DNA from: a virus
Direction: 5' to 3' (one strand)
IMG/VR virus record: IMGVR_UViG_3300025652_000057
Coordinates: 1-64,000 of that record
Length of the DNA stretch: 64,000 bases
Part shown: positions 1 to 32,779 of the stretch, piece after piece
How the letters are laid out: each line of letters begins with the position of its first letter
How positions within the stretch are numbered: the stretch's first letter is position 1
Notes under the pieces: model-generated
Database searches by the model: none
What the model was told of the DNA's origin: nothing
Seen by the model: only the letters and a program-made list of their open reading frames with translations
Translations under genes and position numbers: made by a program

Positions 1-268
1 TCCACTTCTCGATCACTGGCTCACCATTATCATCTTCATCGATCACAACATAGGCAACAGTTTTCTTGACAGTAGCATATCGATAACCACGATCATCACT
101 TGAAGCGTTGGTTACCCAGACTTTATGGGGAAACTCTTTACCGAAATAAGAAAGTAGGTCGTCATCATTATGTGAAAACTCAAAATAGTTTCCATACTCT
201 TTCTCATCAAAGATTCCAATGATGGTTGCTTTCTGATCAAAGTATGTTTCAGACGGGGCAAATGCCAT
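1..268 (-). CDS. Hypothetical protein, 3' end cut off by the window edge
   Basis: An open frame reads from an ATG at 268 to the left edge without a stop, giving 89 visible codons. The N-terminus begins MAFAPSETYF and continues with a mixed acidic and aromatic sequence (for example FEFSHNDDDL). I see no catalytic motif, signal peptide or membrane segment and do not recognise the family. A purine-rich GAGAGAGAAC lies upstream of the ATG, and a sigma70-type promoter at 301-328 points into the gene, so it is probably an early gene independent of the glycosyltransferase genes behind it. The C-terminus is outside the window. Confidence 0.75.
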   Translation of the reverse strand, partial: MAFAPSETYFDQKATIIGIFDEKEYGNYFEFSHNDDDLLSYFGKEFPHKVWVTNASSDDRGYRYATVKKTVAYVVIDEDDNGEPVIEKW

Positions 269-300
269 ATTAAAGTTCTCTCTCAATTCATTAAGTAGCT

Positions 301-331: not shown

Positions 332-1834
332 TTATTTTGCATTTTTATAGTCGAAATCTCTATCTAGAGTCATTCCGTAATTATTCACATCAGAGGGCAT
401 ATCAAAGCCATCTTTCAGAATAGGAGTGTTAGTCTTGAATGGACCATAGTCTACCCAGTGATGCCATCTGCCATATCTCCAGACGAGTCGAGCAACATCT
501 GGATGCATATCAACCAGCATCTGAGATTTGTTTACAGTGCCTTCAGTATTATAACCAGTCTCTTTGAACTCGTCATTATCTGCATTTTCAGCATGATAGA
601 ACTCAGCAGTATTACCACCAGCAACAGTCTGAGTAGCACATTTACCCTGAAGAAAGGCATTGAACTGTAGACACACATCTCCATCTTTCATAACTCTTAA
701 GCAAATATCAGTGTCTTCGTTGTAACGACCACGCCATCTATGCTTACAATCATTACGAATTAGTAATGCAGAATAGATTCGAGTGTTTGCTACGAATGCA
801 GGATAGCTTTGATCTGGAGCAATAAAGAATCGATATTGTGGACCAGCAATATAGACATTATCGTATCGATTTACAAAGTCTTCCATGATCTTAAAGCCTA
901 CACCACTCTCGAATCGAATGCGCTCATTCTCATGAAGTCGATAGAAGTCGGAGATATTGTCATCGAATACCCAGTGACTAGTTGCACCAATAGTCATCGA
1001 ATGATCCCATGCCCAGTTTCTAGCACGACCAGGACCATCACCATGATTAGAGAATGGGGCAACTAGAAGTGTGACATACTGGCGAATACCAAAGTTATCC
1101 AGTGCTTCTTCATACGCAGATTCATCTTGCGGCTCAATTACGATATAATGAGGAATATGCATACGAGCAAACGATCTAGAAGTGATCATTGTATCAGCTC
1201 GACCTTTAGATACGATATACATTGGGTGCTTAGGATTTGTACGACGAGGCTCTTCTACCCATCTTAGCTTAAGATTCTTTGTAACATTCAACTTTGGATG
1301 CCAAATGCTCTTAGTCTTGTCAGTTACTTCTTGACCGATCTTGACGGCAAAGTTATCATAATCTTCTTTACTTCTAAACTTCATAGTTACACTGCGAAAG
1401 GCGTTAGCATTTTCCTGAGTGTAAGCAGGCATGCCCTTCCATTGAGATTCCCAGTACTTATCATCAGCAGTACTTTCAGCGACTTCTTTTCTTTTAGGGA
1501 CAAGTTTAGATGGATCGATAGCTACAGCAATATCATCGTCTGCAAATAGACAATTATTCACATCACTTAGAGGATGGTAGGTAGACTTCATCTTACCAGG
1601 AATCATCTGATTGATCTTAGTACAGAACTCTACCATATCGGCTTGAGTCTTAAAGTGAACGTAGATAGATTTCCAAACGTCAGACTCGACTACCTTCTTA
1701 GCTTTAGTCATATCTTGAAGAACGACAGGAAGAGGTTCATCAAAGAACTTATCTAAGCCAACGCTGTAAGAATCATTCTTACGGGCATCTTCTTCCATAT
1801 AATTGTCGTATTCAGAACTCTCTTTCACGCTCAT
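332..1834 (-). CDS. TET-associated glycosyltransferase (TAGT) with tandem N-terminal repeat domain
   Basis: The C-terminal two thirds (residues about 204 to the end) match the TET-associated glycosyltransferase family, GT-A fold enzymes that add sugars to hydroxymethylated bases in phage DNA. Visible landmarks are MYIVSKGR at the start of the domain, the metal-binding DDN at 291-293, RYNEDTDICLRV near 382, and GGNTAEFYH. The N-terminus holds two copies of a roughly 33-residue unit (56-88 and 148-180), each with a hydrophobic-F-x-S/T pattern and ending K-S-x-(Y/W)-H-P. I chose the ATG at 1834 because GGAG stands about 10 bases upstream; a start at 1879 would place the N-terminus inside the promoter at 1868-1896. 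The downstream gene order is gp46, a second glycosyltransferase, then this gene. No TET oxygenase or hydroxymethylase is in the window, so the modified base is inferred, not shown. Confidence 0.85.
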   Translation of the reverse strand: MSVKESSEYDNYMEEDARKNDSYSVGLDKFFDEPLPVVLQDMTKAKKVVESDVWKSIYVHFKTQADMVEFCTKINQMIPGKMKSTYHPLSDVNNCLFADDDIAVAIDPSKLVPKRKEVAESTADDKYWESQWKGMPAYTQENANAFRSVTMKFRSKEDYDNFAVKIGQEVTDKTKSIWHPKLNVTKNLKLRWVEEPRRTNPKHPMYIVSKGRADTMITSRSFARMHIPHYIVIEPQDESAYEEALDNFGIRQYVTLLVAPFSNHGDGPGRARNWAWDHSMTIGATSHWVFDDNISDFYRLHENERIRFESGVGFKIMEDFVNRYDNVYIAGPQYRFFIAPDQSYPAFVANTRIYSALLIRNDCKHRWRGRYNEDTDICLRVMKDGDVCLQFNAFLQGKCATQTVAGGNTAEFYHAENADNDEFKETGYNTEGTVNKSQMLVDMHPDVARLVWRYGRWHHWVDYGPFKTNTPILKDGFDMPSDVNNYGMTLDRDFDYKNAK

Positions 1835-1867
1835 CTCTAAGCTTCTCCGTTTTGTTGTATTTCGTAT

Positions 1868-1896
1868 ATTATACACCAAGTGAGACTGTTTGTCAA
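1868..1896 (-). promoter_or_regulatory. Exact sigma70 consensus promoter for the TAGT gene
   Basis: On the minus strand: TTGACA, 17 bases, TATAAT, a 12 of 12 match. It overlaps the stop codon of the upstream glycosyltransferase gene (ends 1893) and lies about 34 bases before the ATG at 1834, which supports that start and gives this gene its own host-polymerase transcript. Confidence 0.85.
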
Positions 1897-2741
1897 GACA
1901 TGAAATCTTCTAAGGTGTTTGCACATTTAGGAGTGTATATTTTACTCCAATTCTTTCTATTTTTCTTCTTGCCATCTTTTTCAAAGATATCAATCGCTAT
2001 TGGCCATAGCTTCTGTATACCTCTAAGTATATCATAATGCTCTTCAGATTGAAATATATTAGTCTCGCTCTTATCTTTAATAGTCTCTTCCCAGATAGGT
2101 CTTTTGCCCTCAAACTCTTTAGTCTGACTTCTATTTAGGAATAGAAATTCGTTAGATTTACGGGTATTAACTCCGCTAGACAGGCAATGAAACATAAACG
2201 CTAAATCTTCTGCTACACGAAACTCAGTGGTCAAATCCTGTGCAATAGGAGAAATCTTTTTACCGTCAAGAAACAACCAAGTGAAAACTCCAATAGTATC
2301 GATATACTCTTGAGGTCTCGGGAAGTCATCTCCACTAGATATTCCAACAACACCCATATTCTCTTCGTCTAACCACTTAGACGCACTATCGAACAACCTA
2401 TTGATCTCTTCTTCAGTCGAAGTCCTCTTAGATTTTTCCATGTTAGATTGGGCTGACCAATACTTACTATTTCTTGTTACTAGCTGGCAGTCGTCGTCGA
2501 CCATAGCGTACTTTATATCTCCAGCATGAAGGTGTATTAGCTTTCTCGTCTCTGCAAGTTGTGTCCAGCTTCCTACAATCTCTTCAGGCAACTCAAGAAA
2601 CTGACAAGGATAATCGTATGATTCCCTCTCGCCTGGCTCAACTACCATAACGACTTTTTCTTGCCACTTTTTAGGAAGATTGTCGTATGTGACCTGATGG
2701 TTAGGTCTACGAATAGTGGGTATATATATCCTCTCTATCAT
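1893..2741 (-). CDS. Second TAGT-like GT-A glycosyltransferase
   Basis: A 282-residue protein that starts IYIPTIRRPNHQVTYD, has a GT-A type acidic motif (VDDD at 81-84) and a later acidic segment (VAEDLAFMF, about 177-185) that lines up in position with RYNEDTDICL of the neighbouring TAGT. From these I infer a nucleotide-sugar-dependent transferase of the same superfamily, without the N-terminal repeats. It lies 10 bases behind gp46 and is followed by the larger TAGT gene. An AAAAGGA ribosome site precedes the ATG, and an exact sigma70 promoter lies inside the end of gp46 (2849-2877). The substrate is unknown; DNA is likely from context, but a protein or carbohydrate acceptor is not excluded. 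Confidence 0.65.
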   Translation of the reverse strand: MIERIYIPTIRRPNHQVTYDNLPKKWQEKVVMVVEPGERESYDYPCQFLELPEEIVGSWTQLAETRKLIHLHAGDIKYAMVDDDCQLVTRNSKYWSAQSNMEKSKRTSTEEEINRLFDSASKWLDEENMGVVGISSGDDFPRPQEYIDTIGVFTWLFLDGKKISPIAQDLTTEFRVAEDLAFMFHCLSSGVNTRKSNEFLFLNRSQTKEFEGKRPIWEETIKDKSETNIFQSEEHYDILRGIQKLWPIAIDIFEKDGKKKNRKNWSKIYTPKCANTLEDFMS

Positions 2742-2751
2742 AGGTATCCTT

Positions 2752-4476
2752 TTATGCCGCTTGTGGTGCTATGCGGCTGAAGTTCTTAACTTTCTCGAAT
2801 CTGATCACACTATGAAACTTGTCGAATAGTTGATCACCCTTGTGGCTTATTATAAAGATATTTGAGTCTGCTGTCAACTCTTCAATGATCTTTAGAAACT
2901 CTTCTGTACCAGATGTATCTAGAGAAGAGTCCATGATCTCATCCATAATCAAAAGATTGGTGGATACTGAGTTACGAAGTTTAGCAACTGAACGCCAAGT
3001 AAACAACAACGCTAGATCGATACGCAACTTCTCACCCTCAGAGAACGATGCATAGCTGAATACGTCACGAAATCTAGACTTGATAGTCTCATTGAAGTTT
3101 TCATCTAGCTCGAATTGTACAAAGAAGTCCATAGCCGCTAGGTACTTATTGATCAGCTTATTCATCACAGGCACATATTGTTTGATGATTCGAGTCTTGA
3201 TACCACCATCTTTAAGCATAGACGCAACTACAGCAAGGGTCTCTTTACTATCAAACAGCCCAGTCTGGTCAGCATGGTAATTTTTAAGCTCTTTCTCTAG
3301 GTCTTTAATCTGGTTGTTATCAACTTCAGTCGCCTCTTTTTCTGCACCGAGAAGATCCTGCTTGATAGCCTTACATGAAGTCATAGCCATCTTAGATGCC
3401 ATTCGATGCTCGCTCATCTTCATATTTTTTTCACTGATAACACTTTCGGTACCGTCAATCTCTTCGAGTCTACACTCTATAACTAAACCTTTGCTCTTAA
3501 GTTCTTCTCGTGCGGCTTCGATTTTTTCTGTTTTTGATGAGTGGCTGGTGATTGTTCCTTCTTTGAACTCATGTTCGATCCCTTGCTTACAGGTTGGACA
3601 GTTGTCATGGTCTTGATAGAATGCAACTTCTTTAGATAGGGATTTGTGTTTATTAGAAAGCTCACGATCTAACTCCTGTAGTTCTTGCAACTTCTTCTTA
3701 GTATCAGACTTGTCCTGTATGCCAGTATTTAGATCAGACACCTCTTGAATAAGAACATCGACACACTCTTGCTCAGACTCGATGAATGAAATCTGCTCTC
3801 TCAACTTCTCCTTTAACTTATCCACTTCCACTTCTCGCATCTTTCTAATAGAATCATTGTGCGTCTTAGATGTAGATATTTTACTGTTGAGTAACTCTAT
3901 ATTGTGCTTGATGTCATTAATATCAGCCTTATTCTCAGTTACTCGTTCCTTAAGTAGAGTGTTCATTACAGTGAATATTTGAATATCAAGTAGGTCTTCA
4001 ATAACTTCTCGTCTCTCGCCAGCCCTTAACTGCATAAAGGGTATGAACGTAGAGCTACCCAGAACAACTACTTGACCAAAGGACTTATAGTTTAGCTTTA
4101 GAATAGTCTCTTCTAAGTACGCTTGGTAATCTCTGGCTGCGGCATCTTGGTTAATCATCTCACCATTCTTCCATATCTCAAAGTAGTTTGGCTTGATGCC
4201 ACGCTTTATGATATACTTAGAGCCACTGATAGTAAACTTGGCTTCGACTTCCAAGTCTTTACCGTTGATAGAGTTTACCAGCTGTCCCTTCTTAATCTTA
4301 CGAAAGGGCTTACCGTATAGCGCAAAAGTCAATGCGTCAAGCATAGTAGACTTACCAGCACCATTGTCGCCAATGATCAAAGTAGACTTACTACGATTCA
4401 ACTGAACTTCTGTCCAAGTATTACCAGTAGATAAAATGTTCTTATAACGAACCGATTCAAATACGATATTTGCCAT
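2752..4476 (-). CDS. gp46: gp46 recombination endonuclease subunit (Rad50/SbcC-like ATPase)
   Basis: This is the ATPase half of the gp46/gp47 complex, which resects DNA ends for recombination-dependent replication. The 574 residues carry Walker A GDNGAGKST (36-44), a long coiled-coil split by the zinc hook CPTC (293-296), the ABC signature FSEGEK (478-483), Walker B LLIMDEI (508-514), the D-loop SSLD and a switch histidine in ISHKGD. Length is close to T4 gp46. Its ATG overlaps the stop codon of gp47 (TAATG), indicating translational coupling. The final 150 bases contain a sigma70 promoter for the gene behind it. Confidence 0.97.
   Translation of the reverse strand: MANIVFESVRYKNILSTGNTWTEVQLNRSKSTLIIGDNGAGKSTMLDALTFALYGKPFRKIKKGQLVNSINGKDLEVEAKFTISGSKYIIKRGIKPNYFEIWKNGEMINQDAAARDYQAYLEETILKLNYKSFGQVVVLGSSTFIPFMQLRAGERREVIEDLLDIQIFTVMNTLLKERVTENKADINDIKHNIELLNSKISTSKTHNDSIRKMREVEVDKLKEKLREQISFIESEQECVDVLIQEVSDLNTGIQDKSDTKKKLQELQELDRELSNKHKSLSKEVAFYQDHDNCPTCKQGIEHEFKEGTITSHSSKTEKIEAAREELKSKGLVIECRLEEIDGTESVISEKNMKMSEHRMASKMAMTSCKAIKQDLLGAEKEATEVDNNQIKDLEKELKNYHADQTGLFDSKETLAVVASMLKDGGIKTRIIKQYVPVMNKLINKYLAAMDFFVQFELDENFNETIKSRFRDVFSYASFSEGEKLRIDLALLFTWRSVAKLRNSVSTNLLIMDEIMDSSLDTSGTEEFLKIIEELTADSNIFIISHKGDQLFDKFHSVIRFEKVKNFSRIAPQAA
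2849..2877 (-). promoter_or_regulatory. Exact sigma70 consensus promoter inside the end of gp46
   Basis: On the minus strand: TTGACA, 17 bases, TATAAT, a 12 of 12 match, encoded within the codons for the last 60 residues or so of gp46. It would start a transcript roughly 100 bases ahead of the glycosyltransferase ATG at 2741. Confidence 0.75.
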
Positions 4477-5546
4477 TATAAACTAATTGCCTCTTCATAT
4501 AATTCATCTAATACAGCTTGGACTTTCTCTTTATCACTACTGATCTCTAGATTACTCACATACTGCTTCAAAATAGTCAATGTGTCTTGCGCTTCATCGA
4601 CCAGCTCACTTTCATCAATAACATCTAAATTCATATGATCTTCAACGACTTTAATGTCACAAGGTGAAGCCGCTTGTATCTTGTCTAAAAATAGATCAAA
4701 GATATATGGATTTGACTTATTCACTATTATAACTTTAATATGAGTGTTTGTCAAGCTCGAAGTGTCAAGGTGAGCTATATCCTCGATTGTCATATCAGTG
4801 TCATCATATTGAATCTTATGGAACATCTTCAGAGGATTCTCAACGTGGGTAACGCTTCTGTCGTCAGTGTTAAATATACTGAATCCACGCTTCTGATCGT
4901 AATCTGACCAATTCATCTCATATGGCGCACCGAGATATGATATATTACCAATAGTAGACGGATGATGAAAGTGACCAGAGTACACAGCATCGAACTTGTT
5001 GAATACTTTCTTATCTAGTCCATGAGTACATAGTTGACCTTTCATCATCTCGAAACCCTGAAACTCAAAGTGACCGAATAAGGTTTGAGCATCGGTAGAC
5101 TTAAACATCTCAAAAGATTCTTCCCAGTTATCAGCACACAGCCAAGGTGCAAGCATAACCTTACAGTCATCGATCACTAGCTCTACTGGCTTCTCCCAAT
5201 AGATGTGAATATTACCGTACTTCGAGTTACCGTAAAGCTGTCGTAGACAGTTCACCTCGTTAGTATTCTTATAGAACGTGTCGTGGTTACCAGCAATAAG
5301 ATGGATGTCTATACCTTCATCGGCACAGATTTTCATGAAGTTTTCTTCAAGATTCTTGGCTGTTACGAAGTTGATATACTTACGTCTATCGCACACGTCA
5401 CCAAGATGAAAGATGGTTGTTATACCCTCTTCTTTAAGCTTTGGAAAGAAAACTTCTTTATAGAACTTAATGAAGTACTCAGCAAAGGCTGCATTGTCTG
5501 ATCTAGCACCCCAATGCGTATCGTTTATCACTGCAATCTTAGCCAT
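4476..5546 (-). CDS. gp47: gp47 recombination endonuclease subunit (Mre11/SbcD-like nuclease)
   Basis: The nuclease half of the gp46/gp47 end-resection complex. The 356-residue protein has the calcineurin-type phosphoesterase motifs in order: NDTHWG (D9, H11), HLGDVCDRR (D50), AGNHD (N87, H88, D89) and GHFHHP near residue 193, which together bind the two catalytic metals. It starts three bases behind gp55, with GAGGAGAAG as ribosome site lying in the last gp55 codons, and ends overlapping the gp46 ATG. A sigma70 promoter inside its 3' third points into gp46. Confidence 0.97.
   Translation of the reverse strand: MAKIAVINDTHWGARSDNAAFAEYFIKFYKEVFFPKLKEEGITTIFHLGDVCDRRKYINFVTAKNLEENFMKICADEGIDIHLIAGNHDTFYKNTNEVNCLRQLYGNSKYGNIHIYWEKPVELVIDDCKVMLAPWLCADNWEESFEMFKSTDAQTLFGHFEFQGFEMMKGQLCTHGLDKKVFNKFDAVYSGHFHHPSTIGNISYLGAPYEMNWSDYDQKRGFSIFNTDDRSVTHVENPLKMFHKIQYDDTDMTIEDIAHLDTSSLTNTHIKVIIVNKSNPYIFDLFLDKIQAASPCDIKVVEDHMNLDVIDESELVDEAQDTLTILKQYVSNLEISSDKEKVQAVLDELYEEAISL
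4726..4754 (-). promoter_or_regulatory. Exact sigma70 consensus promoter inside gp47
   Basis: On the minus strand: TTGACA, 17 bases, TATAAT, a 12 of 12 match inside gp47 coding sequence and about 250 bases before the gp46 ATG. A second TTGACA lies 14 bases further upstream. It would allow gp46 and the glycosyltransferase genes to be expressed independently of gp47. Confidence 0.7.
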
Positions 5547-5549
5547 GAA

Positions 5550-6104
5550 TTACTTCTCCTCATCGTCAATAAATTTCTCTAAACCCTTCTTCACTCTCTT
5601 TTGTTGTTGTTGCCTCTTATCTTCCATTTTCTTCTCATAGTTCTTGACGAAGGTATTCATGTAGTCGTTATCTAGGTCTATATAAGACGGCATACCATTA
5701 TCATCACCTTCGCTTTCTACTGCTGTACCAGAGGTGACAGAATTCTCAGTTACTTTGTGTTTGATATATAACTGCTTCTTCTCTTTATCAATACGTCTCA
5801 GAAATGCGTACCAGATGATTTGAGTGAAGTAAGCGAATGGATTGCTAGACTTGTCTGGGTCAAAGTTACCTAGTGCTTGAATTGCATTTTCTAGACCATC
5901 ACTAATCATCTCGTCTTTATATGAGTAACCCGAGAAGTTAGGTTTAGATGCGAGTCGAGTAGATATCTGATAGACACACTCACCTAGATAGTTGGGTATC
6001 TGTGGTACAGGATCACCAGAGTCTTCTGCTTCTACACATAGCTTCTTATATGCTACGATAGCTGCCAGAAACTCAGGGTTGTTTACGTAATTCTTCTTAG
6101 CCAT
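5550..6104 (-). CDS. gp55: gp55 late-transcription sigma factor
   Basis: A small divergent sigma factor that, with gp33 and the clamp gp45 in T4, directs host RNA polymerase to TATAAATA late promoters, which are present throughout this window. The core FAYFTQIIWYAFLRRIDKEK resembles sigma region 2 and is typical of phage gp55; the C-terminus is highly charged (RQQQQKRVKK). I prefer the ATG at 6104 (184 residues) with GAGG nine bases upstream; an in-frame GTG at 6119 would add five residues. It heads the gp55-gp47-gp46 run and has its own sigma70 promoter at 6133-6161. Confidence 0.93.
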   Translation of the reverse strand: MAKKNYVNNPEFLAAIVAYKKLCVEAEDSGDPVPQIPNYLGECVYQISTRLASKPNFSGYSYKDEMISDGLENAIQALGNFDPDKSSNPFAYFTQIIWYAFLRRIDKEKKQLYIKHKVTENSVTSGTAVESEGDDNGMPSYIDLDNDYMNTFVKNYEKKMEDKRQQQQKRVKKGLEKFIDDEEK

Positions 6105-6132
6105 TCCATTAGTCCTCACTCAATTTACATAT

Positions 6133-6161
6133 AGTATAATACATTTGACGGCGTATGTCAA
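6133..6161 (-). promoter_or_regulatory. sigma70-type promoter for gp55
   Basis: On the minus strand: TTGACA, 17 bases, TATACT, 11 of 12 consensus positions, ending about 30 bases before the gp55 ATG. It would allow gp55 to be made by host polymerase before late transcription begins. Confidence 0.75.
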
Positions 6162-6190
6162 GTAAAAGTTTATTTTATTTAATTTGATGA

Positions 6191-6258
6191 AATGTCTTGA
6201 CATGGTACCAAGAGTCGTGTATAATAGCGTTATCGCTTGTTGAATAATACTAATGTTT
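6191..6258 (+). promoter_or_regulatory. Orphan sigma70 promoter, first copy of a tandem repeat
   Basis: TTGACA at 6197-6202, 17 bases, TATAAT at 6220-6225: an exact consensus match on the plus strand, opposite to every neighbouring gene. The hexamers sit in a repeat unit that includes a short dyad (AGCG TTAT CGCT) and the tail GTTGAATAATACTAATG. A second copy follows 76-77 bases later. No plus-strand gene follows. Confidence 0.7.
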
Positions 6259-6266
6259 TACTGATC

Positions 6267-6335
6267 AATGTCTTGACATAATGTGGTTATGTGTGTATAA
6301 TAGAGTTATTGCTCTGTTGAATAATACTAATGCTT
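6267..6335 (+). promoter_or_regulatory. Orphan sigma70 promoter, second copy of the tandem repeat
   Basis: TTGACA at 6273-6278, 17 bases, TATAAT at 6296-6301: again an exact match on the plus strand. It shares with the first copy the flanks AATGTC before the -35 box and GTTGAATAATACTAATG after the -10 box, while the spacer has diverged. The dyad is changed to AGAG ... CTCT. Transcription would run antisense into the 3' end of the 117-residue gene at 6327-6680. Confidence 0.7.
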
Positions 6336-6684: not shown

Positions 6685-8145
6685 TTATCCTTTCATCTTA
6701 ATATTATATATACTATACTCAAACCCTTCATCATTATATATATCAACTCTCTCCAAGAAATGTTTGACTGCAAAGTTCTTCTTGGACTTCCATTGAAGGT
6801 CATCTACTATATCATACAGTGTCGCTTTATCTGATCCATTACCCTTACGAAGTACTCTACCTATCGATTGAAGATTTCGAATCTTTGACTTAGATGGAGA
6901 TGCAAAGATGATATTATCCAGACGCTTAATATTAACACCAGTGCTAAAAGTCCCATAACTAGCCAGAATGATGTTATTATCGCTAGACTCAGCAACACTA
7001 CGGACTTCTTCACGATCTTCTGCACTGATTGCGCCATGTATAAAATGAACAACTTTCCCCTCCTTTTGTAGCATTGGCTCTAATACTTTACCATGCTTCT
7101 CAACAAATTGAAATAATATAAGTGTGTTGCCCTTTAGTCCATGTGCAAGATTTCGTATATATTTGTTTCTTGCTTCGCTTCTAACTATCCAATCGATCTC
7201 TTCTTGATAGCTCATGTTCTTATTTAGCTTGCGTATTTCATCGGGGTATTGAAGCACTAACGCCTTGATATCAAACTCTGCTAGAGTGTTATCATCAATC
7301 AGATCCTTAGTTCTAGTTACTTCGAATACTGATCCAAACAGACCTTCGAGTACGAGTCTATGCGTCTGAGTTCCATCTAGTGTTCCAGTGAAGCCGTATC
7401 GATACTGACATTCAGGCATCTTCTCAAGAACAGAAGATACAGACTTAGCTTTAAATAGATGTGCCTCGTCACCAATAACAACACCGAACTTAGCGAACCA
7501 ATCTTTTCTTAGCTTATATATTGACTGCCAAGTGGATATGGTTATATCTGCTTCAATGTTCTTATCAATGCCACCACGTATCTTGTGTATGTCTAACTCT
7601 TGACCACCATTATATTCGATGAAGTCAGATGCCATTTGCTCGACAAGTGACGTTGTGGGTACTACGATTAGAACTTTCATATCTAACGTCTCTATGTAGA
7701 AACGTGTTAGTAGGTATATAATGAAAGACTTACCAGAAGCTGTTGGAGAGAGCAGTAACGCTCTCTCATGCTTTAGCGCATGAACTACTGCATCATTCTG
7801 ATACTCACGAGGTACGAATGCTGTCTCAAACTCTTTCGCTAAATCAAAGCCAGCAGTATCTTGCACTTGATTGTTTGGTATGATACCTTCATCAACAGTG
7901 ACTTCATACTCTCTTGAATTACAGAACTTTAGGATATAGGGTACAAGACCTCGATAGATTCTACCAGTCATTGCATTCAGCAATCTCACCTTCCCATCCC
8001 AAATTTTGTTCCGAACGGAAGGCATAAACTCGGCACCGGGTACCTTGAACGTAAAGTGATCAGACAACTCCATCTTAATGCCAGGTTCTGCTACGACCCT
8101 AACATAGACGTTATCGACTACTTCTATAATCACTTCATCAGTCAT
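6685..8145 (-). CDS. uvsW: UvsW DNA/RNA helicase
   Basis: A superfamily 2 helicase that in T4 unwinds R-loops and branched recombination intermediates and helps the switch from origin-dependent to recombination-dependent replication. The 486 residues show an N-terminal substrate-binding domain, Walker A SPTASGKS (133-140), DEAH (226-229), the TGTL motif III region and the motif VI segment SIGRVLRKG. Length matches T4 UvsW. It begins one base behind uvsY, whose final codons supply the CAGGAG ribosome site. Confidence 0.96.
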   Translation of the reverse strand: MTDEVIIEVVDNVYVRVVAEPGIKMELSDHFTFKVPGAEFMPSVRNKIWDGKVRLLNAMTGRIYRGLVPYILKFCNSREYEVTVDEGIIPNNQVQDTAGFDLAKEFETAFVPREYQNDAVVHALKHERALLLSPTASGKSFIIYLLTRFYIETLDMKVLIVVPTTSLVEQMASDFIEYNGGQELDIHKIRGGIDKNIEADITISTWQSIYKLRKDWFAKFGVVIGDEAHLFKAKSVSSVLEKMPECQYRYGFTGTLDGTQTHRLVLEGLFGSVFEVTRTKDLIDDNTLAEFDIKALVLQYPDEIRKLNKNMSYQEEIDWIVRSEARNKYIRNLAHGLKGNTLILFQFVEKHGKVLEPMLQKEGKVVHFIHGAISAEDREEVRSVAESSDNNIILASYGTFSTGVNIKRLDNIIFASPSKSKIRNLQSIGRVLRKGNGSDKATLYDIVDDLQWKSKKNFAVKHFLERVDIYNDEGFEYSIYNIKMKG

Positions 8146-25114: not shown

Positions 25115-27877
25115 ATGTCAACAACAAAGTACTTAAAATTTGGTGCAAGAGCAGACAAGAATCTATCTGATCTTTCAGATCCATCGGCTGCATTAGATAA
25201 CATACTTAACGATATATCTGCCCAGGTAGATAGTGACGGTAACCCTTTGGGATTCACATCATCAGATTTGTTTCCCTTAATAGGACTCGCAGAGACCGGA
25301 TTGGCTAATAATCTAACTGTATCCGGACAATCTTCGGAATTATTGAATCTTGCTGGAAATACTCTACGGGCTACCTCGACTAGCGGCACACTGATAGATG
25401 TTGAGCCTCGTGTGACTATTCAAGATTATATTACCAACTTTAAGACAATCCTTGGAGATCCGCCTTGGGTTGACGGCGGCACTGGTCCCGATGCTACATT
25501 CATTCCATCAGATAGATTAAATGCAAATACTACTGACAATGTAGGCAGCATTATAGCTTGTGATCCAGGCGACACCCAGGGTGGTGGCGCACAGGATTTA
25601 ACTGTAGGAAACAGATATAGAATAGAAGTGCTGGCGAACATTAACCAAAACGGGTGGAACGATATAGCTGGTACTACTAATGTGACATACGCTATAGGCA
25701 GCATATTCACTTGTGCGGTCACTGTTTCTGATGCTGTTGGTGATGGAAATCACAACGCTGCGGCGTGTAGAAATGTCACATTGCCTAATGGTAACTCGGG
25801 CACAGCAAACGCAAATGCTCTAACCTCGAATCAGTTGTTCACCACAAAGGTAGACGCTTCACTAACTTCGATAGTGGGTCCTGAGGAATTCTGGACAAAC
25901 GGAAAATTCAACCTATCTGGAAAGATTCATCCAAGCTTCACTAACACTTTTGGTGGAATTCAGTGGACAGGATATCTGAGCGGGCAATGGGATATACAGG
26001 TCGAGTCTACAGGTTTCTATATTATAGAAGAGGATCGGGTAGACGACGGAAGTGAGAATAACTGGTCCCTATTGAAAGCTGTTACCACAGAGACTATTAA
26101 GACGTTTAGCGAAATCAAGTGGACACTGAGCGACCAAAATACTCTAATCGAATTTACCGATGAAGATGATTATAAGAGGGTTTGTAATGGAATGGATATC
26201 GTTATAAATGATATACGGGCTGAGGTGACACGAGTCTATAGGACTTCTAATGGTGATGGAACGTTCACTTACTATGCGGAGTTAGATCAGGACGTAGGCA
26301 CCGAAGACACTAGCGGATCGATCCAAACTTTTGAGTATGATCTATTCGATGAGAGAATTAACTCAGAGATTTTTTACTTCACCAGAACTGCTTTATCTGA
26401 AAGGAGAAGAGTTAGAATTAGTACATATTGGCCTAGTTTGGGACAAGGTCTACAGTATCCCAGTAAGCTGTTCTCAGATATAGGGGGAGGCGAGAGTCTA
26501 GGATTTCAGTATTTTTATAAAAATGATGGCTCAACTGATGTATATGGCAAATACAGTTTTCCATACTTTAATGAAAATAGAGCGAATATATTAAAGCAAG
26601 AGTCCGGCGCAAAGTTGACTGTTGATGATGTGTTATCTCTTGAGTACACTCCAAGTCAAAATACCCAAGATGTTATAACTGGTTATAACACAGCAAGTGA
26701 TACCGTGCCGGCAGACGATGTTAAGTTGGTTGAGGATGGTGTTCTAGATGATGTACTAGACGGCAGCACGTTTAGTGGATCACAAAAGGGCGACTGGATT
26801 GTTGCTGTTCCTGCGTTTACCACAAACTGGGCAAATGCGGCATCGAAGGCATATGCGTTTCAGATAGAATACCTTCCTGCTGGCAGTAAAGCTTACGTCT
26901 CAAAGAATTATGGCACATTAATGGGCTTAGCTCTTGAACAAACACACTATCTAATACTGGTAAAAAATCGTGGACTAATAGGTATCTATAAGAAAGATGC
27001 TCCTACAGCCACTAATGAGTGTCTGCTTCGTAAACTAGACACTGGAACTGGCGCAATGGACAAGGATACGTCTCTAGTTTCTGTGGGCGATCTGGTCCAT
27101 ACTGTCACGTTTACGGGAGCGGCGGGCAGCCTACCAGCACATAATTATCCACTCAAAGTGAATTCGATAAGTTCTACTAGTACACAGGCTTCAGTTGTCG
27201 TAGCCGTTCATCCCAAAGATAGTGCGGATATGATATCTGGCGATGGTATTGCGATTGTGTATGCCTCTAGAGGACTGAACGACATATCTGCTAAAAGTGA
27301 GTGTGAGGGCGCATATGGACTAGAGGTTAATGTAGCCTCTCCGATAGCGACACCACAGAAAATATATGTTAGCGATATTAGCCGAGGTGCCGATATGGTT
27401 AATGATGTCGCATACTATGTTGGTTCGAATTCGGCTTCACCCGTGATAGACCAATCTTCGAATAATTCCTCTACGAATGCTACACTCGTGACTGGTTCTG
27501 GCACCGATGCTACTGGTACATATATAACTCTTGATAGAAATATAACTGCACCGATTGAGACGGGAACCACTGTAGTTCTTATGTCTGATACAAACGCTGG
27601 TAAATATAAGAATAGAGAGTATTGTATTATTCCATTAAACACTGCTCCTCCTTGGACAAGTACAAGTGAAGGTCTAGCTACTCCTAGTGGAAACCCAGAT
27701 TTGATTACAGAGGGTCTAATATTTCGAGAACTGGGCGCTGATGTGGCTACATCTAATGTGGTAAGTCTAGCTACTAATCCATTCAGTGATCCGAATTCTG
27801 TTTCAGATAAGTATGTTCCTATAACATTTAACGGAAATACTTATAAGATTCTGGTCAATGATAATACATTAACTTAA
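25115..27877 (+). CDS. Large virion/fibre protein, the only plus-strand gene
   Basis: A 920-residue protein starting MSTTKYLKFGARADKNLSDL with GGAAGA upstream of the ATG. The N-terminal motif (ADKNLSDLSDPSAALDNIL, residues 13-31) is of the kind found at the base of phage fibres and resembles the N-termini of the genes at 29291 and 27874. Near residue 165 is one copy of the dispersed aromatic/glycine module (YRIEVLANINQNGW ... GSIFTC). The rest is beta-rich with no enzymatic motif. It is divergent from the neck operon and convergent with the next fibre gene, whose stop overlaps its own. Expression is expected to be late. Receptor binding is plausible but not shown. Confidence 0.88.
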   Translation: MSTTKYLKFGARADKNLSDLSDPSAALDNILNDISAQVDSDGNPLGFTSSDLFPLIGLAETGLANNLTVSGQSSELLNLAGNTLRATSTSGTLIDVEPRVTIQDYITNFKTILGDPPWVDGGTGPDATFIPSDRLNANTTDNVGSIIACDPGDTQGGGAQDLTVGNRYRIEVLANINQNGWNDIAGTTNVTYAIGSIFTCAVTVSDAVGDGNHNAAACRNVTLPNGNSGTANANALTSNQLFTTKVDASLTSIVGPEEFWTNGKFNLSGKIHPSFTNTFGGIQWTGYLSGQWDIQVESTGFYIIEEDRVDDGSENNWSLLKAVTTETIKTFSEIKWTLSDQNTLIEFTDEDDYKRVCNGMDIVINDIRAEVTRVYRTSNGDGTFTYYAELDQDVGTEDTSGSIQTFEYDLFDERINSEIFYFTRTALSERRRVRISTYWPSLGQGLQYPSKLFSDIGGGESLGFQYFYKNDGSTDVYGKYSFPYFNENRANILKQESGAKLTVDDVLSLEYTPSQNTQDVITGYNTASDTVPADDVKLVEDGVLDDVLDGSTFSGSQKGDWIVAVPAFTTNWANAASKAYAFQIEYLPAGSKAYVSKNYGTLMGLALEQTHYLILVKNRGLIGIYKKDAPTATNECLLRKLDTGTGAMDKDTSLVSVGDLVHTVTFTGAAGSLPAHNYPLKVNSISSTSTQASVVVAVHPKDSADMISGDGIAIVYASRGLNDISAKSECEGAYGLEVNVASPIATPQKIYVSDISRGADMVNDVAYYVGSNSASPVIDQSSNNSSTNATLVTGSGTDATGTYITLDRNITAPIETGTTVVLMSDTNAGKYKNREYCIIPLNTAPPWTSTSEGLATPSGNPDLITEGLIFRELGADVATSNVVSLATNPFSDPNSVSDKYVPITFNGNTYKILVNDNTLT

Positions 27878-29290: not shown

Positions 29291-32200
29291 TTAGTCTAAA
29301 AGTATTGTCCAGCCGTTTGATCTGAGAGCGGCTAGCTTGTTTGAGGATGAAGCTATGCCATCTGTGTCGTCATCATCTACAGCAGCTTGAGATAATGTAT
29401 CTAAGCCATCTGAGCGGCTCTGTCCCAAGAAATTCAATGTTACGCCACCTCTAGGTCTAGCTTGGTAGTTTTCATATAGATCGTATATCAACTCTGTTGC
29501 AGTCGAGGCACGAAGATTGTTATTGCTGAAGTCTAAATCCCTCATTACTAAACAGTATCTAAGAGAGCCTGCGCTATATCCATTTAATTTATTATTTTGC
29601 ATTCTCAGGTTTTTCAGCGATGGCGTATTAGAGAAATCTGGAATTAATTCGCTGAATTCATTATCGTTTAGCCATAACGTTTGAAGCTTGGGCAATTCCT
29701 GCGCAGGAAATTGACCGCTAAATGAATTAACATTCATCTTTATTGTCTTAAGCTTTGGATGAGTAAGTATGGGGAATGTCCCCGTTAGACCTCTACTCAA
29801 AATTCTGTCTTTTGCGTATGGCATAACCTCAGCGCCTGAGTTAGAGCCACCTATAACAGCAGCGGCGTTGGCAGTAAAGGTTCTGCCTGGATATATGCTA
29901 GGACTGCCATTCATTATGGCATGCCATTCAGACTCAGTGTGTGTGCCTACCTTTCTTATCATATATCTCTTACTAGCGTCGAGCTGTACTGTTTTAGGAT
30001 TGATGGCTTGTGCAACAAACGAATCTCCCACTGTAGGATTCGCACCGTGATTTACACCTGTTATTGGATCAGTTCCCCCGTCTACCCAACCAATTTGTTC
30101 CCACTGAAGTTTGGATGCTGTATTAGTGGTAGCGTCTCCATAAAGGCTTATTATAGTGTATGTCTGCTCTGCCTGTACCCATATTAAATCCTTTAATCTA
30201 GCGTTCTCTCTGAGGTCTAAGTATTCGAGTTTTTGATTGGCAGCAAAATCAGGTAAAGTGCCTCTGAGATCGTTAGCCGCTAGATATATCTGTTTGAGAT
30301 TTTTACAGTTAGTTAGGTTTAAATTATAGTCAGCGTTCGTAGGATGAACAATAGTTCCAGATGATCTCCAATGCTGGTATGAATATAGATACTGTAGTCT
30401 TTGAGAGTTTGCGAAAGCCTGTCCTCGATGATTTACGGCACCACTAGTAGAGAAAATGTCATTACCGTATAATTCCTTATCACTTCCTGCGTTCAAATAA
30501 TGTGTTAAATTGTTAGACCCTAAGAATATATCATCTTGTATTGTTCCACGGACGCCATAGCCCCATCTAATGTCGATAAAATATAAGTTTGCCTTTCCTT
30601 GAAACATTCCATTAGTTTTAAAGTTGCCCCTCATATTTCTAGGGTTATACAAATTGAAGTATTCTAGAGAGGTACATCCATCAAACTTGCCGTCTATGGT
30701 CCTCTCGGCGGTTTGCCATCTACTGTCGGTTGAGTTGTGCTTCTGAGAATATCTCTTTAGATTTATCTTATTTGACATATCTATAACATTATGATATCCG
30801 TATTCTGATTGGAATTCGGTGATGTTGGAGCTTCTGAATGCTGGTATGGCCATATCAGTCGAGCTTTTCACTTTAGTGGCAGTATTCGTACCATCGTAAT
30901 TAGGATACTCTGAGTTAGTGAATGTGCCGTTCTGTCTAATATCAACATACGTTGTGTTTGGACTTCTATATACACCAGGCGACAGACCAGAGAATGGTTG
31001 TCGGTAAGTAGAGTAATATGATATGCCGTCAGTGCCATAATATTCGAGATTGCCGTCTACATCACATTTAACGAACGAGTGTCCTCCTACACTAGATCCA
31101 CTTGTAGACATTGTGACTGCGGCAGTATCTTCTTTATTTAGAACATTGACTATGTTACTTGACCCATCTCCAATCTTTTCGAATATGTAGACCTCTCCGT
31201 CTGTTAAGCCAGTTACGCCAGCGCCAAGTCTTGGGTAGAGATCAACTCTCTGATTATATTTGACGTAGATTTTAGTAGAACTTAACGATGAAGTCCCACC
31301 ATCGAACCAAATGTCTACATACCCTGAAGGTAGTGTCGCCAGAGATATTGTTGTGACTGAGCCGCTTACCGGCCATAGATCGGTTACACTTCTTAGACCA
31401 GTGTTCGCTTCTAAAGGATCATATGTCTGCGGAGATATCTTCGAACCGAGCATAGCTCTGACGAGGTCTCTTTGATATGTGGCGCCCATAGAGAGGTCAC
31501 GAAGAGCCTTATAATCTTTTAAATTCACAGGTGTGGCATCCCTAAAACATCCGTTAGCGAATATAGTTGTCATGGTTGTCGGAAGTCTGTTTAGCTGTGC
31601 CGATGCCGTACTTGCTGAGAGCGCCGATGATTCTGTGAATCCGTTTGTGCCTTCTATGTATTGTGCCGCTCTAGTTAAGCCTAAGTTGTTTCCTGTGATC
31701 GAAATCTCTTCTAGTGCTGTAGCAAGACCTGCGCCACCAGCGTAACCAGACTTTGCTACTGTAGCGTCACTTCTAAATTCTGGCATAATAGAGAAGTCGT
31801 TGCCCTCTATATTTAAAATCTTTAGTGCGGGTAAGCTTATGTTAGTCCAATCTATTAAATTGGTATTCTCTACATCTAGTCTCTGAACCTTAGATGGATC
31901 GTAGAAAAATTCAAGTCTTCTAGGCTTAGATGACGTGTCTCTGTATGCATAGATTGCGGGATTAGTTTCTGTTCCGATGCCTATGTTGCCCGGATTCGCA
32001 GCCGTGCCGTCACCAGAATTATACGATAAATCACTTCCGTCAGTATTCGTGATTCTCCATGTTATAGGGACTAAGCCTGCGGAGTCACTGACTCCTCCAG
32101 GCGTAATGACTGCGCCAAGATCAACATCTCTAAAATATGCATTCCATGTTATCGGTATGCCTTTCATTGCTAAGAATTGGTGTGTGTTTGTAGCATCAGC

Positions 32201-32779
32201 CGCATTCGTATTATTTATTTTTAAGACATGGGTTGCAACTTCAGCCCTGAACGTCTTAGGTATAGGAGCAACCGTTGTCTCTAGGTTCGTGAATGCTATA
32301 GTGTCGCCTATAACTTTAGCTTCACCGCCGTAAAGAATGTAATCGCTTGGAGTTGGCTCGTTGCCAACTGGTGACCATGAGGACTGTCTTGATGTAGATA
32401 TATCTGATGCCTTTAATGACCAGTAGTTCAATCCATCAACTTCACTAAAGTCTATATAATTAAACTTGATGGCACTGCCCGCTATACGGGAATTTATTGA
32501 CATATTGAAGTCCATAGGAACTCTAATATCACTTACAGACTCTAATACATCATTAGTAGTTTCTGCGGTTGAGGCCAGAGACTGTAGTGTTGTTTTTTGA
32601 GGCTCTATTAGTTTAGACACAGCATGAAAATCTGTTACGGTGACATCGGTACCGGGTTGAGTCAGTCCCCTGATTAAATCGAGATCGGCTCTATTTAATC
32701 CCAAGTTACGCAAAGCTATGCGAGGGTCGTCTACATCGATCATACCCTTTGCGATATTAAGACCTCTAAAAATTGCCAT
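29291..32779 (-). CDS. Leucine-rich-repeat adhesin / tail fibre protein
   Basis: A 1162-residue protein. The N-terminus GLNIAKGMIDVDDPRIALRNLGL is a fibre-base motif. Leucine-rich repeats occur at about 300-345 (LPALKILNIEGNDFSIMPEF), around 700-760 in BspA style (FDGCTSLEYFNLYN), at 820-870 (LKQIYLAANDLRGTLPDF; LEYLDLREN) and at 1000-1110 (LKTIKMNVNSFSGQFP; LQTLWLNDNEFSELIP; LKNLRMQNNKLNG). Two copies of the dispersed module (about 870-985) interrupt the repeat array. This points to a protein-binding surface on the virion, probably receptor recognition. It is coupled by TAATG to the upstream gene. Confidence 0.87.
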   Translation of the reverse strand: MAIFRGLNIAKGMIDVDDPRIALRNLGLNRADLDLIRGLTQPGTDVTVTDFHAVSKLIEPQKTTLQSLASTAETTNDVLESVSDIRVPMDFNMSINSRIAGSAIKFNYIDFSEVDGLNYWSLKASDISTSRQSSWSPVGNEPTPSDYILYGGEAKVIGDTIAFTNLETTVAPIPKTFRAEVATHVLKINNTNAADATNTHQFLAMKGIPITWNAYFRDVDLGAVITPGGVSDSAGLVPITWRITNTDGSDLSYNSGDGTAANPGNIGIGTETNPAIYAYRDTSSKPRRLEFFYDPSKVQRLDVENTNLIDWTNISLPALKILNIEGNDFSIMPEFRSDATVAKSGYAGGAGLATALEEISITGNNLGLTRAAQYIEGTNGFTESSALSASTASAQLNRLPTTMTTIFANGCFRDATPVNLKDYKALRDLSMGATYQRDLVRAMLGSKISPQTYDPLEANTGLRSVTDLWPVSGSVTTISLATLPSGYVDIWFDGGTSSLSSTKIYVKYNQRVDLYPRLGAGVTGLTDGEVYIFEKIGDGSSNIVNVLNKEDTAAVTMSTSGSSVGGHSFVKCDVDGNLEYYGTDGISYYSTYRQPFSGLSPGVYRSPNTTYVDIRQNGTFTNSEYPNYDGTNTATKVKSSTDMAIPAFRSSNITEFQSEYGYHNVIDMSNKINLKRYSQKHNSTDSRWQTAERTIDGKFDGCTSLEYFNLYNPRNMRGNFKTNGMFQGKANLYFIDIRWGYGVRGTIQDDIFLGSNNLTHYLNAGSDKELYGNDIFSTSGAVNHRGQAFANSQRLQYLYSYQHWRSSGTIVHPTNADYNLNLTNCKNLKQIYLAANDLRGTLPDFAANQKLEYLDLRENARLKDLIWVQAEQTYTIISLYGDATTNTASKLQWEQIGWVDGGTDPITGVNHGANPTVGDSFVAQAINPKTVQLDASKRYMIRKVGTHTESEWHAIMNGSPSIYPGRTFTANAAAVIGGSNSGAEVMPYAKDRILSRGLTGTFPILTHPKLKTIKMNVNSFSGQFPAQELPKLQTLWLNDNEFSELIPDFSNTPSLKNLRMQNNKLNGYSAGSLRYCLVMRDLDFSNNNLRASTATELIYDLYENYQARPRGGVTLNFLGQSRSDGLDTLSQAAVDDDDTDGIASSSNKLAALRSNGWTILLD

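Follow-up and report, generated by a model that had tools for sequence, protein, structure and literature searches.

TAGT-family glycosyltransferase pairs with a WxxMPEF domain in a T4-like marine phage and its relatives, a candidate DNA glycosylation cassette

Described systems and the paired locus

The TET-associated glycosyltransferase (TAGT) family (PF20691, PHROG 842) is known, and one DNA activity has been described for it: in phages T2 and T6, TAGT adds a second glucose to DNA (PMC13216743). In the literature, the T6 enzyme acts after a GT-B alpha-glucosyltransferase (alpha-GT). PMC13216743 also counts solitary TAGT homologues lacking alpha-GT and beta-GT in 288 of 753 phage genomes and flags their role as unexplained in 2026. 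Two further systems are relevant. Arabinosylation in the Mosigvirus phages RB69 and NP uses two sequential transferases with a sugar-gene cluster and depends on a 5-hydroxy-dCMP synthase, a member of the thymidylate synthase superfamily (PMC13390438, PMC6024577), and Krischvirus SAP provides a precedent for glucosylated DNA with no recognised hydroxymethylase (PMC13390438).

We analysed a window of 64,000 nucleotides, positions 1 to 64,000 of the 66,623-base IMG/VR virus record IMGVR_UViG_3300025652_000057. The record covers only part of the genome of a T4-like marine phage and carries major head, portal, sheath, terminase and baseplate genes together with gp46, gp47, gp55 and UvsW. TAGT2 and then TAGT1 lie directly behind gp46, all on the minus strand within the replication module (Table 1). 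The first-pass annotation had described two adjoining GT-A proteins of 500 and 282 residues behind gp46, and both open reading frames (ORFs) are present as it placed them; TAGT1 is 500 residues long from its ATG and 515 with a TTG start. Elsewhere in the window, a 920-residue ORF (25115-27877), the sole large plus-strand ORF, overlaps a minus-strand ORF and has no PHROG or Pfam match, and the structural gene region encodes a 1162-residue protein with leucine-rich repeats near its C terminus (29291-32779).

Only one of the two proteins had been credited with TAGT signatures. The signatures are real, but this was an understatement, because both proteins match PHROG 842 ("beta-glucosyl-HMC-alpha-glucosyltransferase") and both pass the curated PF20691 cutoff of 27.5 bits in the profile search that the annotation had proposed, TAGT1 with 134.6 bits (E value in Table 1) and TAGT2 with 34.1 bits (E = 3.3e-8). 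Aligned with T6 TAGT, both retain the G-x4-R, DDx and ED motifs, the acidic ones being DDN at residues 291 to 293 and NED at 372 to 374 in TAGT1 and DDD at 82 to 84 and AED at 177 to 179 in TAGT2. The T2/T6 enzyme shares with this locus its GT-A family, its motifs, its place in a replication gene region and a length of about 280 residues, like that of TAGT2.

The AlphaFold2 model of TAGT2 (pLDDT 84) is a GT-A fold whose best PDB match is TarP (GT2). The model of TAGT1 is poorer (pLDDT 68), with structural matches that are likewise GT-A enzymes, and LH3 is among the top structural matches of both; the alignment rows behind the models came from the window and IMG/VR loci only. Searching the PDB with phmmer returned no matches for either protein. 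We found at least 422 TAGT1 and at least 137 TAGT2 relatives in IMG/VR with the catalytic motifs kept, so the TAGT pair is not a chance occurrence. A profile-profile comparison of TAGT1 with TAGT2 was not significant (0.7% probability), and their tie is therefore one of family, fold and motifs and not of close paralogy; they are divergent partners. Among named phages, tblastn found no relative of TAGT2 and none of the GT-B gene that neighbors TAGT1 in some relatives.

Table 1. Positions in the window of the TAGT genes, their domains and promoters, and neighboring landmarks
Feature	Position	Strand	Basis or remark
Small gene downstream of TAGT1	2..286	-	PHROG 23785; also beside TAGT1 in close relatives
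TAGT1, 500-residue TAGT-family GT-A glycosyltransferase carrying two WxxMPEF-type domains at its N terminus	332..1834	-	
TAGT1 catalytic domain (residues 204-407)	614..1225	-	PF20691, 5.7e-39; motifs aligned with T6 TAGT
WxxMPEF domain, main copy (TAGT1 residues 127-183)	1286..1456	-	Own HMM, 97.6 bits, the same sequence being in the HMM building set
WxxMPEF domain, second, degenerate copy (TAGT1 residues 51-88)	1571..1684	-	27.7 bits, 1.3e-10
Sigma-70 promoter before TAGT1, TTGACA-N17-TATAAT	1868..1896	-	Perfect consensus; overlaps TAGT2 stop
TAGT2, 282-residue TAGT-family GT-A glycosyltransferase	1893..2741	-	Pfam, model, motifs
gp46, SbcC-like recombination nuclease subunit	2752..4476	-	Landmark
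Sigma-70 promoter before TAGT2, TTGACA-N17-TATAAT	2849..2877	-	Perfect consensus; inside gp46 3' end
gp47	4476..5546	-	Landmark
gp55 late sigma factor	5550..6119	-	Landmark
UvsW helicase	6685..8145	-	Landmark

Linkage of the two transferases and the WxxMPEF domain

We measured linkage in newly fetched loci only, collapsing TAGT2 at 90% identity and keeping genes flanked on both sides by at least 1.5 kb. A TAGT1 gene lay within 1.5 kb of 19 of the 23 independent TAGT2 genes, and a domain of about 58 residues containing the motif WxxMPEF was present at 18 of the 23, in a sample that is not wholly unbiased because the search profile started from TAGT2 genes originally encountered next to TAGT1. 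Among the four exceptions, a 165-kb record has, at another place, a further TAGT match as strong as those of TAGT1, and one locus (L236) has TAGT1 slightly beyond 1.5 kb. Co-operation of TAGT1 and TAGT2 is well supported.

In the TAGT1 of the window, the WxxMPEF domain stands at the N terminus in two copies. In many relatives it forms a separate gene of 110 to 127 residues, and the order there is domain, TAGT2, TAGT1 catalytic part. This order recurs in unrelated backgrounds, both T4-like genomes and genomes in which the genes adjoin terminase and portal genes, which argues that the cassette moves as a unit. In one locus (L232) the domain is fused to ParB_N (PF02195, 4.6e-6). Two further proteins were labeled ParB-like by eye: a single protein combining TAGT2, a ParB-like part and the WxxMPEF domain, followed by TAGT1 (L248), and a ParB-like protein with the domain between TAGT2 and TAGT1 (L254). 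Pfam recognises ParB_N in the L232 fusion only. With the domain alone as query, tblastn matched only the TAGT1 proteins of PTm1/PTm5 and phiAS5, and a ParB-type copy of the domain gave no match. An expanded cassette with TAGT2 followed by two tandem domain-plus-TAGT1 pairs occurs at L256:8001-11251.

Both genes of the window are preceded by perfect sigma-70 promoters (Table 1). Most relatives have a sigma-70 site with zero to one mismatch upstream of TAGT1, and in a group whose TAGT1 has no such site, a one-mismatch site precedes TAGT2 instead. As predicted from sequence, perfect sigma-70 promoters in a T4-like phage may indicate early-type expression by the host polymerase. Five perfect matches, on both strands, lie within the 4.5 kb of window positions 1868-6301, and none lie elsewhere in the window.

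In different relatives, the slot that separates gp46 from TAGT1 is occupied by TAGT2, by phosphomannomutase (PMM)-like, cytidylyltransferase-like and GT-B genes, or by an FkbM methyltransferase. These look like sugar-making or sugar-tailoring genes, which would fit a decorated DNA sugar and a surface glycan alike. One clade has a PF13640 2OG-Fe(II) oxygenase directly 3' of TAGT1 and, next after it, an FkbM methyltransferase. Several relatives have a further GT-A-like gene before gp45 (L257:13897-14709), with a weak Anp1 match below the cutoff. In the 91-kb relative G001, bilin reductase, heme oxygenase and 5-aminolevulinate-synthase-like aminotransferase genes stand in a row (L111:1436-4947), with CsgG and NifU_N genes nearby; these three are the tetrapyrrole gene set described in PMC11480375. 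In a 152-kb record, TAGT1 is immediately followed by genes judged by eye to be heme-oxygenase-like and bilin-reductase-like (L216:8858-11034).

Source of the acceptor hydroxyl

The first-pass annotation had proposed that the sugars decorate a 5-hydroxymethyl base made by a TET/JBP oxygenase or a dCMP hydroxymethylase, and had suggested a genome search for such an enzyme. This part of the proposal is not supported: we found no base-hydroxylating enzyme in the 66.6-kb record, which is a fragment, and recognised none in longer relatives. No gp42-type dCMP hydroxymethylase was recognised in any cassette-bearing record examined, nor in the complete genomes of the very different phages that carry the TAGT1 subfamily; the PF00303 search behind these results detected both td and gp42 in its positive control, T4. 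The PF00303 enzymes of relatives keep the dUMP-type Asn, whereas T4 gp42 has Asp at this cytosine-specificity position, and in the nearest relatives the thymidylate synthase superfamily is represented by enzymes that resemble canonical ThyA. Scans for Tet_JBP (PF12851) were empty in 54 plus 15 phage records and 2 bacterial genomes, with no working positive control.

The closest long relative, G001, has most replication and metabolic genes, among them ThyA (dUMP type only), DHFR, SHMT and dCMP deaminase. An hmmscan of 49 of its proteins gave no match to Tet_JBP and none to the GT-B alpha-GT or beta-GT families (PF11440/PF09198). The 165- and 152-kb TAGT2 records have ThyX near the cassette or within 7 kb of it, and a PF00303 enzyme is absent from both. 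Two transferases, here presumed to act in sequence, and a sugar-gene cluster are features in common with Mosigvirus, but these relatives seem to differ from it in having dUMP-type ThyA or ThyX where Mosigvirus has its 5-hydroxy-dCMP synthase. When 13 TAGT1-bearing records and T4 were compared all against all, only TAGT1 and a UvsW-type helicase were common to all 13. TAGT1 therefore does not depend on any conserved phage hydroxylase visible to sequence comparison. We rejected the PF13640 enzyme as a universal hydroxylase partner, since it is missing from most records. Vibrio phage Kuja and Aeromonas phage 65 (L103, L106), whose genomes carry TAGT1, have divergent thymidylate synthase superfamily enzymes with the motifs LRPCM and FNMIQ/ANMLQ; these could be dUMP hydroxymethylases.

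Target of the cassette and its significance

A genome scan found the full TAGT2-TAGT1 pair in a cultured bacterium, Marivivens donghaensis (L270), and the two genes also occur in a Flavobacteriia metagenome-assembled contig (L269). Both sets lie in integrase-bearing islands with DNA methyltransferases (L270:3224-15815 and L269:228-9831) and have an extra domain of about 270 residues, which is fused to TAGT2 in L270; the L270 island also encodes a nuclease-like protein with an HNH-like motif seen by eye. TAGT1 was carried by 3 of 395 genomes of one bacterial family (that of G066); in one of these it lies near a C5-methylase-like gene (L274), and another shares genes of the L270 island (L275). 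The methyltransferases a few kilobases from the bacterial copies are of C5 type in L269, N6/N4 type in L270 and probable C5 type in L274. Homologues beside DNA methyltransferases in mobile or defence islands would make DNA the likeliest target. Defence genes tend to cluster in any case, and we therefore regard this neighborhood as supporting and not decisive.

We consider it about an even call that TAGT2, TAGT1 and the WxxMPEF domain form one DNA glycosylation cassette that protects the phage genome. The domain, which here is inside TAGT1, would bring both enzymes to phage DNA; one transferase would attach a sugar to the hydroxyl of a base, and its partner would extend that sugar or add a second kind. 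The glycosylation would then shield the genome from nucleases during infection, with the hydroxyl supplied by an unrecognised phage enzyme or by the host. The family and fold of the enzymes, their conserved catalytic acids, their linkage with each other and with the domain, the early-type promoters and the lack of a recognised hydroxymethylase or TET/JBP enzyme in the relatives examined are observed; we infer the DNA target, the order of action, the sugar donor, the protective role and the origin of the hydroxyl. The T6 precedent within the family, the ParB_N fusion, the methyltransferase neighbors and the position in the replication module make DNA our best single guess. The first-pass annotation's broader proposal of a glycosylated base thus survives in part: the two TAGT enzymes evidently co-operate, DNA is favored and a disaccharide could be built stepwise, while the proposed source of a 5-hydroxymethyl acceptor is not supported by the relatives, the record itself being a fragment. 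Four findings count against the cassette reading: Pfam recognises ParB_N in one fusion only, UvsW is the only gene that accompanies TAGT1 in all 13 compared records, the slot genes are of kinds found in surface-glycan clusters, and no hydroxymethylase or TET/JBP enzyme was recognised in relatives, the Tet_JBP scans being uncontrolled.

Those slot genes (PMM-like, CTP_transf-like of RfaE/TagD type, GT-B and FkbM) are what would be expected under the main rival explanation, that the enzymes alter the lipopolysaccharide or O-chain of the infected cell and exclude superinfecting phages. Pelagimyophage glycosyltransferases in general have been argued to alter surface glycans, restriction-modification being nearly absent in SAR11 (PMC7029224). 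We judge this role unlikely here, since the WxxMPEF domain is shared with ParB-type proteins, the bacterial copies adjoin DNA methyltransferases and the TAGT genes sit in the replication module. The TAGT family is also not known to act on surface glycans. A classical T-even system, in which a hydroxymethylase or TET/JBP gene lies outside the fragment and a disaccharide is built on a 5-hydroxymethyl-pyrimidine, is favored by the incompleteness of the record, by the gp42 gene that adjoins T6 TAGT and by the missing positive control of the Tet_JBP genome scans. It is nevertheless improbable given the dUMP-type ThyA of G001 and its 49 scanned proteins without Tet_JBP, the ThyX-bearing 165- and 152-kb records without a PF00303 enzyme, and the absence of a gp42-type enzyme from every cassette-bearing record examined.

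Lysyl hydroxylase LH3 hydroxylates and glycosylates collagen, and its place near the top of the structural matches for both models, together with the clade in which a PF13640 oxygenase and FkbM directly follow TAGT1, would suit a scheme in which the oxygenase hydroxylates a phage protein that the TAGTs then glycosylate. The window's record and its nearest long relatives, G001 and G009, have no PF13640 enzyme, however, and the GT-A structural matches are at fold level only, so that we rate this scheme as slightly less probable still than the T-even one. Glycosylation of RNA or of nucleotides, for example of a modified tRNA, has nothing specific in its favor, and the ParB-type fusions and methyltransferase neighbors point to DNA; we hold it to be very unlikely.

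Set against the described systems, the cassette differs from T6 TAGT, which is single, adjoins the gp42 hydroxymethylase gene and has no WxxMPEF domain, in having two paired TAGTs and no gp42 that we could find. Like the solitary TAGTs, it has no T-even first transferase that we recognised, but the accessible part of PMC13216743 mentions no TAGT pair, third domain, ParB fusion or bacterial island. Krischvirus SAP differs in that no glycosyltransferase gene was detected there (PMC13390438). In a limited literature search we did not find a paired cassette with a ParB-associated domain, and within that search the two-TAGT arrangement with its domain is new.

It is possible, though on balance doubtful, that TAGT1, TAGT2 and a ParB-associated targeting domain make up a widespread modular system of diverse phages and bacterial methyltransferase islands, with a hydroxyl made by neither a T4-type hydroxymethylase nor a TET/JBP enzyme but by an undescribed route. 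The cassette genes occur in cultured phages (TAGT1 in phiAS5 and 1.124.O, and twice in Kuja) as well as in a cultured bacterium, which makes the question of the solitary TAGTs answerable by nucleoside mass spectrometry. If DNA is the target, the cassette would point to a route to sugar-bearing bases that has yet to be described.
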